Source of the DNA: Magnetococcales bacterium
GTDB lineage: Bacteria; Pseudomonadota; Magnetococcia; Magnetococcales; JADFWT01
NCBI GenBank assembly: GCA_015233785.1
Contig: JADFWT010000006.1
Location: 1 to 53,663, forward strand
Direction of reading: 5' to 3'
DNA length: 53,663 nt
Shown here: positions 4,395 through 12,012 of the stretch, in pieces
How the letters are laid out: every line of letters starts with the position of its first letter
Position numbering within the stretch: the stretch's first letter is position 1
Notes under the pieces: model-generated
The model's database searches: none
What the model was told of the DNA's origin: nothing
Seen by the model: only the letters and a program-made list of their open reading frames with translations
Made by a program: the position numbers and the translations under genes

Positions 4395-4600
4395 ACTCAT
4401 CCTTCCACTCTGAATGCGCCCAAGGCGACATCATCGTCGCATCCCGTTGGAAAATCACCGTTTCATCAACCTGACAGACCATATGCCGGAGCATTAAAGA
4501 TCGACCTCGACTTGGACATACAAGTTGAATGATTTGATATTTTTATACAAAATTGAGATATTACAAAGAAATATCAGGCTCTACAGCAGGGATTAACAGC

Positions 4601-6808
4601 ATGGCCCATATTCGCAAAATCAAGGTTGCCAACGGTATTTTCTGGGTAGAGATTCAGGAAATCGACTTCCGGTTGCTCTGCGGCTGTCCGGCCGATAGCG
4701 TCAAGCATCTCCTGAAACGTGGCCTGATCATGCCGGTGGAGCAAGATGGCGTAACCTATGAAAGTGGCCCCAATGCCATTTTGCTCTCCGATGTCCTGAT
4801 TCAAAACGGCGACCTCTGCAATCTGGCCGAATTCCCGGTACTACAGATGCTCTACCGCCAGGGCATGATCCTACCCGGCCACCCCAACAATACCGGACGC
4901 AAGCCCCTCTTGATCGGCTCGACCGGGCAGGTGGCGGCACAGATGGATTATATCTACCGGGGCAACTACGGACTCACCAACGAAAAAGAGATTCTGGAAG
5001 CCGGTATCGGGCCGGATGAGGCCAAACGCATGATGGCGCTCAAACTGCAATTTGCCTTCGGGAGTATCCGCCCCAGCGAGGAGCTACTGGATGTTCGTGT
5101 GATCCACAGCACCGATCCAACCACCATCGTCGATGGTGTTGAGATGCAACGACTGGCCCTGAACCACTTTGCACTACGCTATCAAGGCGAAGAGATAGAG
5201 ATTGATCTCAATCTGGAATCCAACGCCTCCTATGCCCTGCCCTATCCGCTGAGCTACCACAAAACGCCTCGTGAGTATTTCGGTATTATCCATGCCGGTG
5301 AAGGCGACGGTTGGGATATCAATCGCCCTACCATGTCCAGCATTCTTATGTTTCAGGGAAAAATCTATCTCATTGATGCCGGCCCCAATCTCCACTACAG
5401 CCTGACGGCGCTCGGCATCGATATCAACGAAATTGAGGGGATTTTTCATACCCACGCCCACGATGACCACTTCTGCGGCATCACCACTCTGATTCGGGCC
5501 GGACATCGCATCAAGTATTACGCCACGCCGCTGGTGCGCGCCTCGGTCACCAAAAAGCTCTCGGCACTGCTCTCTCTGGAAGAGGGGTTCTTCGACCACT
5601 ATTTCGAAGTCCACGATCTGACCTTTGACCAGTGGAACGATATGGATGGCCTGGAGGTAAAACCAATCTTCTCGCCCCATCCGGTGGAGACCAATATCTA
5701 CCTGTTTCGCACCCTCTGGGAGGATGGCTACCGCTCCTATGCCCACTACGCCGATATTGTCGCCCTGGATGTGTTGCAACGGATGGTAGACCCCAAAGCC
5801 AACGGGCCCTGCGATATCTCCCAAGACTACTTCAACCGGGTGCGTGATGAATATCTCATCCCGGCGGATATAAAAAAGATCGATATCGGCGGCGGCATGA
5901 TTCATGGCGTCGCCAAGGATTTTACTGAGGATCAGTCGAAAAAAATCATCCTATCCCACACTTCTCTAAAGCTAACAGCCCGAGAAAAAGAGGTGGGATC
6001 CAGCTCACCATTCGGCACCATCGATGTCCTGATTCCCAACCACACCGATCATGTCCGGCGCATCGCCTTTAAATTTCTCCATGCCTATTTCATGTCGATC
6101 CCGGAACATCTGCTCAACATTGTGCTAAACAATCCAGTCGTTCACTTCAGCCCCGGCTCTATCCTGTTGAAAAAAGGCCAAGTAAACCAGGACATCTATC
6201 TCATTATCACCGGTAGCGTTGAGGTGATATGGCCCGATCAGGAGATGGCCAGCACCCTCCCTTCCGGGGCGTTGATCGGTGAGTACGACGGACTCCTCAC
6301 CCTGAAGTCACGAGGCACCTATCACGCCGTGAGCTATGTGCAGGCACTGCGTATTCCGTGCAGCCTCTACAGTGCATTCATTAAACGCAATAAGCTCTTC
6401 TCCAAGGTGGAGCGAGTGCATACAAATCACCAATTTTTGCAGCAAACCTGGCTCTTTCAAGAGGAGATCTCCTACGCCACCCAGAACCGTATCGCCATCG
6501 CCATGGAACGCCTTACCTACCCCAAGACCGGCACAAAGCTGATTGTGGATGATGAGTGCGCCCTCTATCTGGTCATCAGCGGCGAGCTCTCCAGAATGCA
6601 CAAGGGAAAAGAGCTGGAACGCCTAAAGCCTAAATCATTCTACGGTGAAGAGGATATGATCGATAAACCGCACACCCGCTGCCACTTTCGCACCTTGGGT
6701 GAGGTGGAACTCTATAAGATTCCCTGCACCATTCTGAAAGATATTCCCATCGTGCGCTGGAAGCTGTTTGAGATGCATGCCAAGCGGGTACGCATGGGCG
6801 CGGTGTAA
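4601..6808 (+). CDS. Metallo-beta-lactamase-fold protein fused to two cyclic-nucleotide-binding domains
   Basis: This is a soluble protein of 735 residues. An N-terminal region of about 200 residues has no family I can name. The metallo-beta-lactamase fold at about 225-500 has the metal ligand motif HTHAHDDHFCG (about 283-293) and later His/Asp positions (IDIGGGMIHG, SHTSL). The C-terminus has two cNMP-binding beta-rolls at about 520-620 and 640-730, recognisable by SPGSILLKKGQVNQDIYLI and by GELSRMHKGKELERL with FYGEED. The start is the ATG at 4601 (AGGG about 11 bases upstream). An in-frame TTG at 4553 would add 16 residues but has no ribosome site. The architecture suggests hydrolase activity gated by cyclic nucleotide; ligand and substrate are unknown. 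It is divergent from neuB and convergent with the glycyl radical operon. Confidence 0.8.
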   Translation: MAHIRKIKVANGIFWVEIQEIDFRLLCGCPADSVKHLLKRGLIMPVEQDGVTYESGPNAILLSDVLIQNGDLCNLAEFPVLQMLYRQGMILPGHPNNTGRKPLLIGSTGQVAAQMDYIYRGNYGLTNEKEILEAGIGPDEAKRMMALKLQFAFGSIRPSEELLDVRVIHSTDPTTIVDGVEMQRLALNHFALRYQGEEIEIDLNLESNASYALPYPLSYHKTPREYFGIIHAGEGDGWDINRPTMSSILMFQGKIYLIDAGPNLHYSLTALGIDINEIEGIFHTHAHDDHFCGITTLIRAGHRIKYYATPLVRASVTKKLSALLSLEEGFFDHYFEVHDLTFDQWNDMDGLEVKPIFSPHPVETNIYLFRTLWEDGYRSYAHYADIVALDVLQRMVDPKANGPCDISQDYFNRVRDEYLIPADIKKIDIGGGMIHGVAKDFTEDQSKKIILSHTSLKLTAREKEVGSSSPFGTIDVLIPNHTDHVRRIAFKFLHAYFMSIPEHLLNIVLNNPVVHFSPGSILLKKGQVNQDIYLIITGSVEVIWPDQEMASTLPSGALIGEYDGLLTLKSRGTYHAVSYVQALRIPCSLYSAFIKRNKLFSKVERVHTNHQFLQQTWLFQEEISYATQNRIAIAMERLTYPKTGTKLIVDDECALYLVISGELSRMHKGKELERLKPKSFYGEEDMIDKPHTRCHFRTLGEVELYKIPCTILKDIPIVRWKLFEMHAKRVRMGAV

Positions 6809-6841: not shown

Positions 6842-7801
6842 TCATGGCCGGGCATTAAAGAGAAGTTCCGCGCAACGCTGCGCCTCTTCTGCGGTCATAT
6901 ACCCACGAGATGGGTAGCGAGCAACGCGTCCAGCTCCGGGAATCTCTGAGCCGAAAAGCGCCCCCCTGTCCCGACTCATGGGGTTGTATGGCAGCAGCGA
7001 ACAGTTACCCACTTGATGACGGCGCAAAAAGGCCCCCAACTGGATGAGGTTTTCACGCCTGTCGGTAATGCCGGGGATCAGAGGAATACGAGGGCGGATC
7101 GGGATGGTGGCTTCCTGATTAAGACGGATAAAGTTATCCAGGATACGTCGATTGGAGCGACCGGTATGGCGACGACTTTCGGCCTCATCCATCAACTTTA
7201 GATCAAAGTAGATAAGATCCAAATAGGGCAAAATCAGATGCTGAAAACGGTCATAGTCAAAATGGCCGCAACTCTCCAGAGCAGTATGAATGCCCCGCGC
7301 CTTGAGCCCTCTGAGCAGGAGATGCAAAAACGCCATCTGGGCCGTGGGTTCGCCGCCTGAACAGGTCACCCCTCCGCCGCTGCTGAGAAAAAAAGGCGCA
7401 TCAATCAGCACCCGTTCCAACAGTTCATCAACCTCCATCCACCAACCGGAAGGGCGCAGTGCCCCACTCGGGCAGTGGGAAAAGCAAGCATCGCAACGAG
7501 CACAGCGCGCGTGCTGCACCTGGATTGAAACCTCTCCCGGCATCAGGCATCCGCTCTCACACCGGGAGAGGCAGGGAGCACCACAGCGTTCCGTTCGGCA
7601 ACGCCCGACCTCAAACAGCAGGGATGCCCTGGAAGCCAACCCCTCAAGATTGTGGCACCAAGAGCATGAGAGCGGACACCCTTTGAAAAACAGCGTAGTA
7701 CGGATGCCTGGACCATCCTCACTGCTGTTGCGCTTTATATCAAACAGCAACCCCTTCGGACCATCGTCCATTACAAACGGCGCTTCTCCCTCTAAACTCA
7801 T
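6842..7801 (-). CDS. Glycyl-radical-enzyme activating enzyme (radical SAM)
   Basis: The protein uses S-adenosylmethionine and a [4Fe-4S] cluster to place the glycyl radical on its partner, the glycyl radical enzyme of the same operon. The radical SAM cluster motif CPLSCSWC (CX3CX2C, about residues 42-49) follows the usual DGPGIRTTLFFKGC context. A cysteine-rich insertion (about 68-112, including CARCDACFSHCPSGA) would bind extra ferredoxin-type clusters, as in activases of glycerol-dehydratase and benzylsuccinate-synthase type rather than classic PflA. SSGGGVTCSGGEP is the SAM-binding GGE-type motif. The start is the ATG at 7801, sharing one base with the upstream stop (TGATG), which implies translational coupling. 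It is the last gene of a four-gene operon. Confidence 0.9.
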   Translation of the reverse strand: MSLEGEAPFVMDDGPKGLLFDIKRNSSEDGPGIRTTLFFKGCPLSCSWCHNLEGLASRASLLFEVGRCRTERCGAPCLSRCESGCLMPGEVSIQVQHARCARCDACFSHCPSGALRPSGWWMEVDELLERVLIDAPFFLSSGGGVTCSGGEPTAQMAFLHLLLRGLKARGIHTALESCGHFDYDRFQHLILPYLDLIYFDLKLMDEAESRRHTGRSNRRILDNFIRLNQEATIPIRPRIPLIPGITDRRENLIQLGAFLRRHQVGNCSLLPYNPMSRDRGALFGSEIPGAGRVARYPSRGYMTAEEAQRCAELLFNARP

Positions 7802-8439
7802 CAACGGGCAATGGCAAGCGTCTCTGTGACGGCGCTCTCCAGATTGGTGGCGACGGCTCCCAACTTGAAGAGATGTCCCGTATTGCCGGTCAACTGCACC
7901 ACATTATCTAACAGCAGCCCCACCATATCGGCATTGCCGCGACTCACCAGACTGACGATAGAGGCGCTATCCTTGAAGCGGATGATCAAATCCACCGCGT
8001 TAGGATTCTGCTCCATTCGGTCGGCCTCCTCCTCATTCAGCACCCCGGATTCAATGATGGCATCCGGGTTGAGAATCTTCTTTCCAAACAACCAATAACG
8101 CTTACGGAACAGCTTGTCAGGATTCGGACAGAAATGAAACCAAACGTTCATGTCGTCACCGCGGGTTTTGGTACGGATCAGAAATTTGCCCTGGTAAAAT
8201 CTCACCCCATCCGGAGCATCAGGATCAACAAAGACGAATGCATCTTTGAACATCCTGTTGGCTCTCTCCACCTGTCGATTATTGAGCAAAGAGTCGCGAA
8301 ACAGAATGGCAAAGCCCCACTCCAACGCCGTGGCCATCACCTGGGCCAGCGCCCGCCCCGCCAGCCTCTCAAGATACTTCTGATTAAGACCCAGAATCTT
8401 TTCAAGCCCCTGGGGGAAACGCGGAAATCCTGCATGCAT
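7801..8439 (-). CDS. SCP2-like small protein in glycyl radical operon
   Basis: The 212-residue protein is soluble, with no signal peptide. The C-terminal half (VDLIIRFKDSASIVSLVSRG, then a helix, then GHLFKLGAVATNLES) resembles the SCP2 sterol-carrier fold: a beta-sheet, a G-x-x-D helix pair and a terminal Leu-rich helix. That would give a hydrophobic ligand pocket. The assignment is by eye and only moderate. I chose the ATG at 8439 because GGGAGAG lies about 7 bases upstream; a longer frame would run back into the end of the glycyl radical enzyme. It lies 16 bases after that enzyme and overlaps the activase by one base, so the three are almost surely co-expressed. It might bind or deliver a hydrophobic substrate or product. 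Confidence 0.6.
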   Translation of the reverse strand: MHAGFPRFPQGLEKILGLNQKYLERLAGRALAQVMATALEWGFAILFRDSLLNNRQVERANRMFKDAFVFVDPDAPDGVRFYQGKFLIRTKTRGDDMNVWFHFCPNPDKLFRKRYWLFGKKILNPDAIIESGVLNEEEADRMEQNPNAVDLIIRFKDSASIVSLVSRGNADMVGLLLDNVVQLTGNTGHLFKLGAVATNLESAVTETLAIAR

Positions 8440-8455
8440 AAGATCTCTCCCGAAA

Positions 8456-11329
8456 TCAAGCGATTGGCGCGGCGTGCAGCTCAACGCCGGACGTCATGTC
8501 AAAGTTTGCACGGTCGATAATTTCCCGGCGCATTTCGGGGCTCAGCGTAATAAAATAGGCCGAGTAACCCGCCACACGAATCATCAAATCCTTAAAGGGG
8601 ATCAAAGCTTCCTGCTCGGCATCGCCTGCCCCCTCCTGAGAGGCTTTTGTAGCGGCCTTATCCGCCTTCTCCAGATGCTCCAGCGAGGTGACGCAAAGCT
8701 GTACCAGAACGCCGTTATGCTCCATAAAGGCCCGCACATGATTGGAGAAGAACGACGCATCTTCCGCCACATGATCCGGTCCGCGGGGCGTTAAGCTCAG
8801 GTTGTAGGTGTAGCCGTTACGAACCGCCATATAATCCACATTGGCCACCGACAACATGTGATCAAGAAGATTAACCGGACTGCCATCTTTTTTGACAATA
8901 CCGGGACAAGGAGTGATGCCCCCCGCAAACGCAGCCCCAGAGCGACGACCATTGGGGGTCGCTTTGGTCAACATGCCAAACCCAGCATGGTTGGTCATGC
9001 TCCAGTAGCCAGCGAGATAACGCCCGCCACGGTGGGTACGATAGGCGTAAAACACCTGATCAATCATTCGTGTCAGGCGGTTGGTGTTTTCCAAGGCCAT
9101 GCTGTTATCCAGCGGCCCCTGGCGCTCAACACCCGCTCCATATTTTGGTGCCAAACGAATCGCCTGGATAATCTCCTGCAGGCGATCCTTACCCAGTGGG
9201 CCTGGATCCTCCAGGTCGAAGTCGGCGGCCATGGCATCCAGCAGCTCCTGGGCACTTATATTCCCATCGAATACCAGCGACTCGATGACACAAAAAGCAT
9301 CGATAATATCGGCCAAACCGATGATGGCAATGCCGGCTGAGTTGTATTTTGCCCCTCCGGCAGTGAGATCCCGGAACACCGCCCCCTTACCTCCAGGCAA
9401 ATTGGTGGGACCGATAAAGAGTCCTGACAAAAACGGGGATGGACGCGCCTTCTCGAAGAAGCGACCCAAATAATTATTGTTACGCACCACCTCCTGAGCC
9501 ATAGCGTCCAGTTGGGTTCGAAAAGCCGCTTCAAACTCGTCCATAGACGCCATTTCGGTGAGTGGCTTGGAGGTGTAGGCCGGGGTTCCGGTGATCAGAC
9601 AGGGATCGTTCGGCTCCACGCCATCACTACGATGTTTGCCACCAAACAGCGTCAGCTCCAAAACCGCCGGCAACACCATCAACGATGAACCAGTATGGCC
9701 GTAATGCTTACCCACGGCATTCTGTTCAATACAGCCAATAGAGGCATAGTCCGCCGCATCCGCCAACGCCTCCTCTCTGCTCACCCCCTCATGAGCAGCG
9801 TAGTAGTTGGCCATGGTCTCAATCACCGGAGCATCACCATGAATGGCCGGTGTGGCGCGCGTCAGGAGATTCACCTGACAGATGCGCTCCATGTAAGGAT
9901 CGTTCTGCCCCTCGGGGAGCTTATTGCCCGCTGCATCCCGATGGTGTACGTCGCTGTGATAACGGGCATGAACGTTGGGATCCCGGATAGCCAGAAGCTC
10001 GGTGGCCTTAAGCACAATGTAGGTCATGTCGTTGACCGCATCCACCAGTTGGCCGTCCTCCACACGGACCCCCCCCACGGTCAACGCCTGATTGGAGCCA
10101 CTTCCAGCAAACAGCTTCTCTGAGCCCTCGGTGGAAAGCGGAACATGATCGGAACAGTGCAGAAAAAAGTTCCCTACCAACTCCACGGCATGGGCTACGT
10201 AGCCGGCCTTCTCCTGCTCGCTATCCAGCCGATTCCAGTCCTCCAGATAGAAGCGGTTGAGTAGCTGATCCAGACGTCCCACCGAAAGGCCAAAGTTGGT
10301 GTTCTCCTGAAGCAGAAGGTGGTAACAGATCCAGACGGCGGTTACCGCCTCATCCAGCGTCGTAGCCGGATGGGACGGAACACGGCGACAGATCTCTGCC
10401 AGCTTCCTATTGCCGTTCTTCTCCGCCTCTTCGGCCAGATGCTCTGCGTAGGTAATGGCCCCCTCGAAGACCTGGATGACACTCTCCAGAAAAGCACTCT
10501 GTTCGCTGTTCTCTCGGGCGCTCCCAGCCAAATCCATCTGCATCTGCTCAATCAGCCCTCGAAGGCCGTACTGCAGCATGCGATCAAAATCGGGCACAGT
10601 ATGCGAGACAGCCGTCGCCTTATCGGAGAGATAGAAGGCGACCCGCTCCATCAACTCCTGACACTTGGGCGTGGTTCCCGCCTTTTTCTTCAAAGGTGGA
10701 TCGATGGATTGACCGGCCACCGTATCCCGATTTTCGTAATGGGTCGTATCGTAATGGCTATAGCGCGCCACCTCCTGCACCGAACGCCGGTTCAGCCAGT
10801 AAGGAAAGACCTCTCGATTCAACTTGTTGGCGGTCTCGGGCTGAATTAGAAATGGATTCTGAGGCCGCTTGGAGACGTTGTTCAGCTCCGGCCAGATGCA
10901 GTAGCCGATGGTATCCATATAGACCACCGGGCCGACAAAACTGGTGGTGGTACTGCCGGGAAGCAGATCGTTCTTCTCAACCTGAGGACGCTTCTTGGAG
11001 AAAATATGGTGCAACACCTCAGCACGCCGTTTGGGGGTATGGCCTAAAGACTCGGTGCGACGCATGGCCTCCGTCTGCAATGTCGGCAACTCCGGGCAGA
11101 TCTCCGGCAGACCGTTAGCCTTAAAAAGCCGATTCCGCCACGCCTTCATCTCGGGAAACACATCCAGAGTCAGATGGCTCAGCGCCAGATCATCCATAGT
11201 CTGAACCCGCGCTGGATAAGGATTCTTCAACTTGGGCGCGGCCCCAGGGGAAGCGTTGCTCTTTGGCGCATCGGTCGTCCCACTCAGATCAATGTTGATC
11301 TCACTACTGGCGATTGGCGTCGTCTGCAT
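8456..11329 (-). CDS. Glycyl radical enzyme (pyruvate formate-lyase superfamily), substrate unknown
   Basis: The protein has 957 residues, longer than the 750-870 typical of the superfamily because of a disordered N-terminus of about 50 residues. The thiyl-radical site is GCIEQ (Cys about 533, Glu about 535), which places it with the non-PFL dehydratase/lyase group; PFL itself has two adjacent cysteines. The C-terminal glycyl loop is RVAGYSAYF (Gly about 921). Other family landmarks are LSVGRLDQ, LTVGGV, DPNVHARY, AKYNSAG and MTNHAGFG. I chose the ATG at 11329 because GGAG lies 7 bases before it. It works in the anoxic cytoplasm once activated by the downstream radical SAM protein. I cannot match the active-site residues to a known class, so no reaction is named. 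Confidence 0.88.
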   Translation of the reverse strand: MQTTPIASSEINIDLSGTTDAPKSNASPGAAPKLKNPYPARVQTMDDLALSHLTLDVFPEMKAWRNRLFKANGLPEICPELPTLQTEAMRRTESLGHTPKRRAEVLHHIFSKKRPQVEKNDLLPGSTTTSFVGPVVYMDTIGYCIWPELNNVSKRPQNPFLIQPETANKLNREVFPYWLNRRSVQEVARYSHYDTTHYENRDTVAGQSIDPPLKKKAGTTPKCQELMERVAFYLSDKATAVSHTVPDFDRMLQYGLRGLIEQMQMDLAGSARENSEQSAFLESVIQVFEGAITYAEHLAEEAEKNGNRKLAEICRRVPSHPATTLDEAVTAVWICYHLLLQENTNFGLSVGRLDQLLNRFYLEDWNRLDSEQEKAGYVAHAVELVGNFFLHCSDHVPLSTEGSEKLFAGSGSNQALTVGGVRVEDGQLVDAVNDMTYIVLKATELLAIRDPNVHARYHSDVHHRDAAGNKLPEGQNDPYMERICQVNLLTRATPAIHGDAPVIETMANYYAAHEGVSREEALADAADYASIGCIEQNAVGKHYGHTGSSLMVLPAVLELTLFGGKHRSDGVEPNDPCLITGTPAYTSKPLTEMASMDEFEAAFRTQLDAMAQEVVRNNNYLGRFFEKARPSPFLSGLFIGPTNLPGGKGAVFRDLTAGGAKYNSAGIAIIGLADIIDAFCVIESLVFDGNISAQELLDAMAADFDLEDPGPLGKDRLQEIIQAIRLAPKYGAGVERQGPLDNSMALENTNRLTRMIDQVFYAYRTHRGGRYLAGYWSMTNHAGFGMLTKATPNGRRSGAAFAGGITPCPGIVKKDGSPVNLLDHMLSVANVDYMAVRNGYTYNLSLTPRGPDHVAEDASFFSNHVRAFMEHNGVLVQLCVTSLEHLEKADKAATKASQEGAGDAEQEALIPFKDLMIRVAGYSAYFITLSPEMRREIIDRANFDMTSGVELHAAPIA

Positions 11330-11445
11330 GCCATGACTCCTCACAAGAGGGCCTGAGAACGGCGCTCCCAAACCCAATGGTCTGCAATATCACTGAACAA
11401 GGGCATCCCTCAAATACACGACAGTTGGAATGCCCAACCTGATCG

Positions 11446-12012
11446 TTAGGGCTCCAGAAGGGGGGCGCGCTTTTTCAACCAGCGCACCATCACCACAAAT
11501 CCAATCACCATGCTGGACATCATGACAATCCAACCGGAGAAAAAGGGGGCCTCCCAAAAGGGGTATCCGCCGCCCTCCACCACCATCTCCTGATACATAT
11601 CTACCTTCAGCCATACTCCCCACCGCAGAAGAAACGGCAGCACGGTCAGACCAAAGCCCAGAATAATGCTATTCCGAACCCACTTATCCCGACCCTCCCG
11701 ATACCAGTGGTGGCCCAACATGAAACCAACATTGGCCAGCAGTACCATAACGATGCCGAACAACACATAGAAGCCTGCTGCGAGAGGACGGTTGTACGGC
11801 CCCTCCAACCAGTCGGTAATGTACATCACCTCCCAGGTGGGCCAGCCAATCATCAGGATCCCCACAGGAACAAAGAAACAGATCATGAAGAGATTGACGG
11901 GACCCGTAAGGCGGTTAGTGAAGAGCCGCGGCTCTTTGCGAAGATATTCACTGGAAAGCGCTGCAAACAGTTGCCCAACGACAAAGGCTGCGGGGAGGTC
12001 GACCTGAACCAT
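11446..12012 (-). CDS. Integral membrane protein leading the glycyl radical operon
   Basis: The 188-residue protein has four clear hydrophobic helices (about residues 37-56, 78-98, 115-132 and 158-178) and a possible fifth at the extreme N-terminus. It is rich in Trp and Tyr and has a GHHWYREGRDKW loop with two adjacent histidines. It starts at the ATG at 12012 with an excellent GGAGGTG ribosome site 6 bases upstream. It lies 116 bases ahead of the glycyl radical enzyme in the same direction, so it is probably the first gene of the operon. No family is recognised. A transporter for the substrate or a membrane redox or anchoring protein are both guesses. Confidence 0.65.
   Translation of the reverse strand: MVQVDLPAAFVVGQLFAALSSEYLRKEPRLFTNRLTGPVNLFMICFFVPVGILMIGWPTWEVMYITDWLEGPYNRPLAAGFYVLFGIVMVLLANVGFMLGHHWYREGRDKWVRNSIILGFGLTVLPFLLRWGVWLKVDMYQEMVVEGGGYPFWEAPFFSGWIVMMSSMVIGFVVMVRWLKKRAPLLEP

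Follow-up and report, generated by a model that had tools for sequence, protein, structure and literature searches.

A conserved glycyl radical enzyme system with a predicted SCP2-like partner in nitrogen- and methane-cycle bacteria

The operon analyzed here belongs to a conserved glycyl radical enzyme (GRE) system that is undescribed within the open papers searched, and the predicted fold of its partner protein is new for GREs there. In these papers no GRE paired with SCP2 is on record, and a window-type GRE is not recorded in Nitrosomonas, methanotrophs or anammox bacteria. In our reading, the operon encodes a radical eliminase of the CXE type, whose substrate would be hydroxylated and lipid-like and would be held by the SCP2-like protein; we assign this reading a probability of about 0.5.

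The window, i.e., the whole stretch of 53,663 nucleotides from a Magnetococcales bacterium (contig JADFWT010000006.1), holds four intact genes on the minus strand (Table 1). They encode a membrane protein, the GRE, a 212-aa protein and a radical SAM activase, and are spaced by 116, 16 and -1 bases in this order, exactly as an earlier sequence-only reading had described. The activase ATG shares one base with the stop codon of the 212-aa gene. Converging on the operon is a gene for a 751-aa protein (window 4553-6808, plus strand) which by eye appears metallo-beta-lactamase-like, followed by cyclic-nucleotide-binding-like repeats. The host genome is 3.36 Mb and 72% complete, and the operon GRE is the sole PFL-like gene found in it.

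Table 1. Genes of the operon and putative active-site codons of the GRE, with positions in the window.
Feature	Position	Strand	Basis
Membrane protein, 188 aa, about 4-5 hydrophobic segments, matches no known family	11446..12012	-	
Glycyl radical enzyme (GRE), 957 aa from ATG	8456..11329	-	Pfam PFL-like (PF02901), E 2.9e-104; PF01228, E 3.5e-06
Putative SCP2-like protein, 212 aa, without transmembrane segment	7801..8439	-	AlphaFold and Foldseek, hhalign, adjacency
Radical SAM GRE activase, dicluster type, 319 aa from ATG at 7801	6842..7801	-	NCBIfam TIGR02494
His243 codon of GRE	10601..10603	-	Family-invariant; aligned with HypD His160
Catalytic Cys533-Ile-Glu535 (CXE) codons of GRE	9725..9733	-	Invariant in 27 sequences; CXE alignment
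Gly921 codon of GRE, glycyl radical site in RVAGYSA	8567..8569	-	Motif and alignment

Identity with a known enzyme was rejected, as every NCBIfam equivalog fails. The GRE passes none of the named-enzyme cut-offs (CutC, HypD, HpsG, HPAD, IAD, PFL and PflD), and the best equivalog scores 208 bits where 1050 are required; the comparison with IAD is by cut-off alone, as the tree took in no IAD reference. The tree, which used E. coli GREs and GREs labelled by NCBIfam as references, places the window GRE family in a single clade (support 100/100) outside the CutC, HypD, HpsG, PflD, YbiW, HPAD and PFL references. On this point the sequence-only reading is supported: the enzyme lies in no named GRE clade. 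A second family, in which the GRE is fused to an SCP2 domain, is sister to the window clade (100/99), and the two group together with an outgroup of two loci, L120 and L125 (100/100).

In a scan of genome contigs, relatives with about 55-66% identity to the window GRE were found at loci L002-L053, beyond which identity falls sharply to 32-36% in the SCP2-fused family (L054-L080). The hosts of the closer group include Nitrosomonas, Methylomonas, Methylobacter, Crenothrix, Gallionellales, Chromatiaceae and Sedimenticola, as well as Nitrospirota, Brocadiales (Scalindua, Anammoxibacter, Brocadiaceae), Acidobacteriota, Desulfobulbaceae and a Sulfuricurvum MAG. The window GRE family spans six named phyla, with lithotrophs and methanotrophs among them, and the operon is found again, conserved as a unit, in nitrifiers, methane oxidisers, anammox bacteria and iron/sulfur bacteria. 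Of 13 host genomes examined, the window counted, 11 have a window-type GRE as their sole PFL-like enzyme; 10 of 12 sampled hosts have one PFL-like match and the remaining two have one extra. Within the class of the window host, the 212-aa protein was found in none of 47 other genomes. The proposal of an anaerobic reaction in the sequence-only reading fits the oxygen sensitivity expected of GREs, but many of the hosts come from aerobic or microaerophilic genera.

The 212-aa protein has no match in sequence searches of Pfam, NCBIfam or the PDB, and the Pfam SCP2 model (PF02036) does not match it. Therefore, its fold had to be approached through structure prediction. The AlphaFold model (pLDDT 84.8, 34 homologues in the alignment) has UbiJ-SCP2 as its best Foldseek match (probability 0.96, E 0.034), and the eight top places all go to SCP2 folds, among them human SCP2, sterol carrier protein 2cx7 and the alkylsulfatases SdsA1 and Pisa1, which have an SCP2-like C-terminal domain; the SCP2 matches have weak E-values, of 0.03 and above. 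In profile comparison by hhalign, the free-standing protein matches the fused SCP2 domain of the sister GREs (P 90.5, E 1.3e-6), and this fused N-terminal domain gives sub-threshold matches to Pfam SCP2 (0.004-0.034). Taken with the conserved adjacency to the GRE, these comparisons support the prediction that the protein is SCP2-like, as first proposed from sequence. Beyond the SCP2 core, the family adds a long N-terminal helical part and a beta insertion.

The coupling of the two genes was assessed wherever 600 bp or more followed the GRE, which was so at 45 loci. The SCP2-like gene lies directly 3' of the GRE in 44 of these and an activase is present in 44, the exceptional locus being on a chromosome where the GRE gene is in two separate parts (CP091134.1, Nitrosomonas MAG_20; L046 and L049). 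These parts lie about 237 kb apart, due to either rearrangement or misassembly. When the SCP2-like profile was searched independently of the GRE in 201 genomes from the order of Methylomonas, 11 had a match, and a GRE of the window clade was found in the identical 11, adjoining the SCP2-like gene. The probability of such identical sets would be about 2e-18 under independence with kinship ignored, which overstates the significance because the genomes are related. The pairing of GRE and SCP2-like protein is not due to chance.

The relatives of the window family carry the same link in other forms. In the sister family the SCP2 domain is fused at the N-terminus of the GRE, while in the outgroup an SCP2-like protein is encoded by a gene of its own that sits between GRE and activase, in the gene order of the window. 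Since free-standing, fused and outgroup forms are all linked to SCP2, the association is older than the split of the three families. The fused family, which is not described in the open papers searched, shares the SCP2 domain and the CXE motif with the window system, but differs in sequence, in the fusion itself and in having TetR and 3-beta-HSD-like neighbours. Some lineages have several fused GREs per genome, and these often occur with a TetR regulator, an activase and a 3-beta-HSD/HpnA/OleD-like dehydrogenase; one member (L163) adjoins a CrtI-like oxidoreductase.

Adjacency and fusion would be explained equally well if the SCP2-like protein were a permanent subunit rather than a carrier. 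It could be a small structural or protective GRE subunit that binds no lipid, in which case a small, soluble substrate is possible. Both 4-hydroxyphenylacetate decarboxylase (HPAD) and benzylsuccinate synthase have small subunits, and this precedent, like the long helical addition and the beta insertion beyond the SCP2 core, counts in favour of such a role. However, the proteins nearest in structure have the lipid-binding SCP2 fold, lipid-type hydrolases adjoin some of the loci, and to our knowledge the known GRE small subunits have other folds. We therefore consider a purely structural subunit rather unlikely.

The active site bears on the type of chemistry. Cys533, Ile534, Glu535, His243, Gly921 and the RVAGYSA motif are invariant among 27 aligned family sequences. 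The CXE motif is a feature of GRE eliminases, in which its Glu is the proposed base, and His243 aligns with His160 of HypD, which is essential in that enzyme (PMC7077986). The window GRE resembles the eliminases (glycerol/propanediol dehydratase, CutC, HypD, IslA/HpsG) in its PFL-like barrel as detected by Pfam, its glycyl motif, its single catalytic Cys within CXE and its dedicated radical SAM activase. It differs from them in being about 25% identical and in having other pocket motifs (SHT, GSGSNQ, HGD, WSMTNH), and none of them is recorded with an SCP2-like partner. According to the alignment, HPAD also carries CXE; therefore elimination is favoured, not proven, and we regard the window GRE as a CXE-type GRE and a candidate eliminase.

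A hydrophobic substrate could also undergo other chemistry, such as decarboxylation or C-C bond formation or cleavage. The CXE motif of the decarboxylase HPAD is in line with this, as is the multiplication of fused sister GREs in sulfate reducers and Smithella, which are lineages with hydrocarbon and fatty-acid metabolism. The X-succinate synthases (BssA, AssA/MasD) are members of the GRE superfamily with hydrophobic substrates. However, the CXE Glu is missing from PFL (ACCVS, with two adjacent Cys) and from L137 (ACMSP), a C-C bond former by its presumed identity as an X-succinate synthase, and the window clade is separate from HPAD, PFL and L137/L150 in the trees. L137 is on another branch than the window GRE, and the PDB entries of MasD and TutD score far lower in the window GRE search. 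Thus, chemistry other than elimination seems distinctly unlikely.

UbiJ and UbiT are small, cytosolic, lipid-binding accessory SCP2 proteins; the 212-aa protein has no detectable sequence similarity to them (Pfam, NCBIfam, PDB) and is tied to a GRE and not to ubiquinone genes. As UbiJ-SCP2 is the best fold match, the operon might serve in an oxygen-independent step of quinone synthesis, in which the SCP2-like protein would play the part of UbiJ/UbiT. This is very improbable: the hosts include menaquinone-using lineages (Scalindua, Sulfuricurvum, Desulfobulbaceae), occurrence in just 11 of the 201 genomes from the order of Methylomonas means that this is not a core pathway, and no ubi gene was noticed near the loci. 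Hopanoids were rejected as substrate: among 35 genomes searched, 30 of them with the window GRE family, squalene-hopene cyclase was above cut-off in 12, and many carriers of the GRE family had none.

The sequence-only reading had named the leading membrane protein as one of the unusual parts of the operon; it proved not to be a general one. Homologues were found in Scalindua (L041, 58%), a Sulfuricurvum MAG (L012, 51%) and Anammoxibacter (L033, 30%), so that with the window 4 of 30 operon-bearing genomes have the protein, each time adjoining the GRE; a fifth match is weak and has internal stops. As credible matches occur in only four genomes and other genes take its place elsewhere, it was rejected as a core part and is a minor, lineage-specific component. 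The suggestion of a membrane-delivered compound is not supported as it was stated.

Commoner neighbours of the GRE are a protein of about 800 aa (near 34 loci) and a DUF6765 protein (near 26 loci), neither of which is encoded in the window or elsewhere in the 72% complete genome. The larger companion is also present in the 11 of 201 genomes mentioned above, plus two fragments. Its AlphaFold model (pTM 0.56) gave no significant fold match, and a viral fold library gave no match; recurrent weak matches to NanoLuc, a beta-barrel (probability up to 0.16), are only a lead to a possible NanoLuc-like fold. DUF6765, which is not mentioned in the open papers searched, resembles zinc phospholipase C at a marginal E of 0.07. 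In the outgroup (L120, L125) DUF6765 adjoins the GRE, and one of the two loci also has a companion of the 800-aa type. Furthermore, a lipase/thioesterase-like hydrolase is found near Methylomonas loci and phosphatases near Scalindua loci; these hydrolase neighbours are not kept across all hosts and are missing from the window.

The window activase scores 238 bits against the NCBIfam activase model TIGR02494 (cut-off 174) and has CxxxCxxC as well as ferredoxin-type cysteines. Of the 44 activases, 22 have fewer than 270 aa; these short forms come mostly from Nitrosomonas, Gallionellales and Sedimenticola (loci L007, L009, L013, L016, L034 and L048 among them), and those inspected keep CxxxCxxC and lack the ferredoxin-type insert. 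A natural activase-GRE fusion of 1101-1112 aa was observed in another clade, in four genomes (L142 130-3468, plus strand; L164 and L165, minus; L166, plus), with CxxxCxxC at about 43-55, GCxE at about 702-713 and the glycyl motif at about 1075-1086.

In the proposed eliminase mechanism, the activase would put a radical on Gly921, from which it would pass to Cys533 as a thiyl radical. The SCP2-like protein would hold the lipid-like substrate while Cys533 abstracts a hydrogen atom from the substrate's hydroxyl-bearing carbon. Glu535, with His243 tuning it, would deprotonate the substrate hydroxyl, and the neighbouring group would leave, in the manner of diol dehydratase or choline lyase. GRE biochemistry accounts for the steps as far as the thiyl radical, and we infer the lipid and the leaving group. 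A hydrophobic compound, as suggested earlier, follows naturally from the SCP2-like partner, and the substrate would likely be the polar, hydroxylated end of a membrane-derived lipid. Because of the lipase/thioesterase-like and phosphatase neighbours and the marginal likeness of DUF6765 to phospholipase C, a glycerol-containing lipid is at best a fair guess.

The eliminase reading is the best supported one, in view of the GRE hallmarks, the single Cys with CXE, the predicted SCP2 fold, adjacency, co-occurrence, fusion and the one 100/100 clade. The CXE motif of HPAD, the weak Foldseek E-values, the structural roles that SCP2 folds can have and the patchy hydrolase neighbours speak against it and hold it at the even odds given above. 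More tentatively, the whole GRE clade might act directly on membrane lipids presented by the SCP2 domain, with radical elimination on an intact lipid, e.g., a glycerol lipid, in the low-oxygen life of nitrifiers, methanotrophs and anammox bacteria; we find this conceivable but doubtful.

GREs are mostly known with small soluble substrates, from fermenters, gut bacteria and hydrocarbon degraders. Here, a GRE is tied to a predicted lipid-carrier fold by operon, fusion and co-occurrence. If the clade does act directly on membrane lipids, these would be the first GREs of lipid metabolism, as opposed to small-molecule catabolism. This gives a testable claim, namely that radical enzymes may take part in lipid metabolism in bacteria of global importance to the nitrogen and methane cycles.
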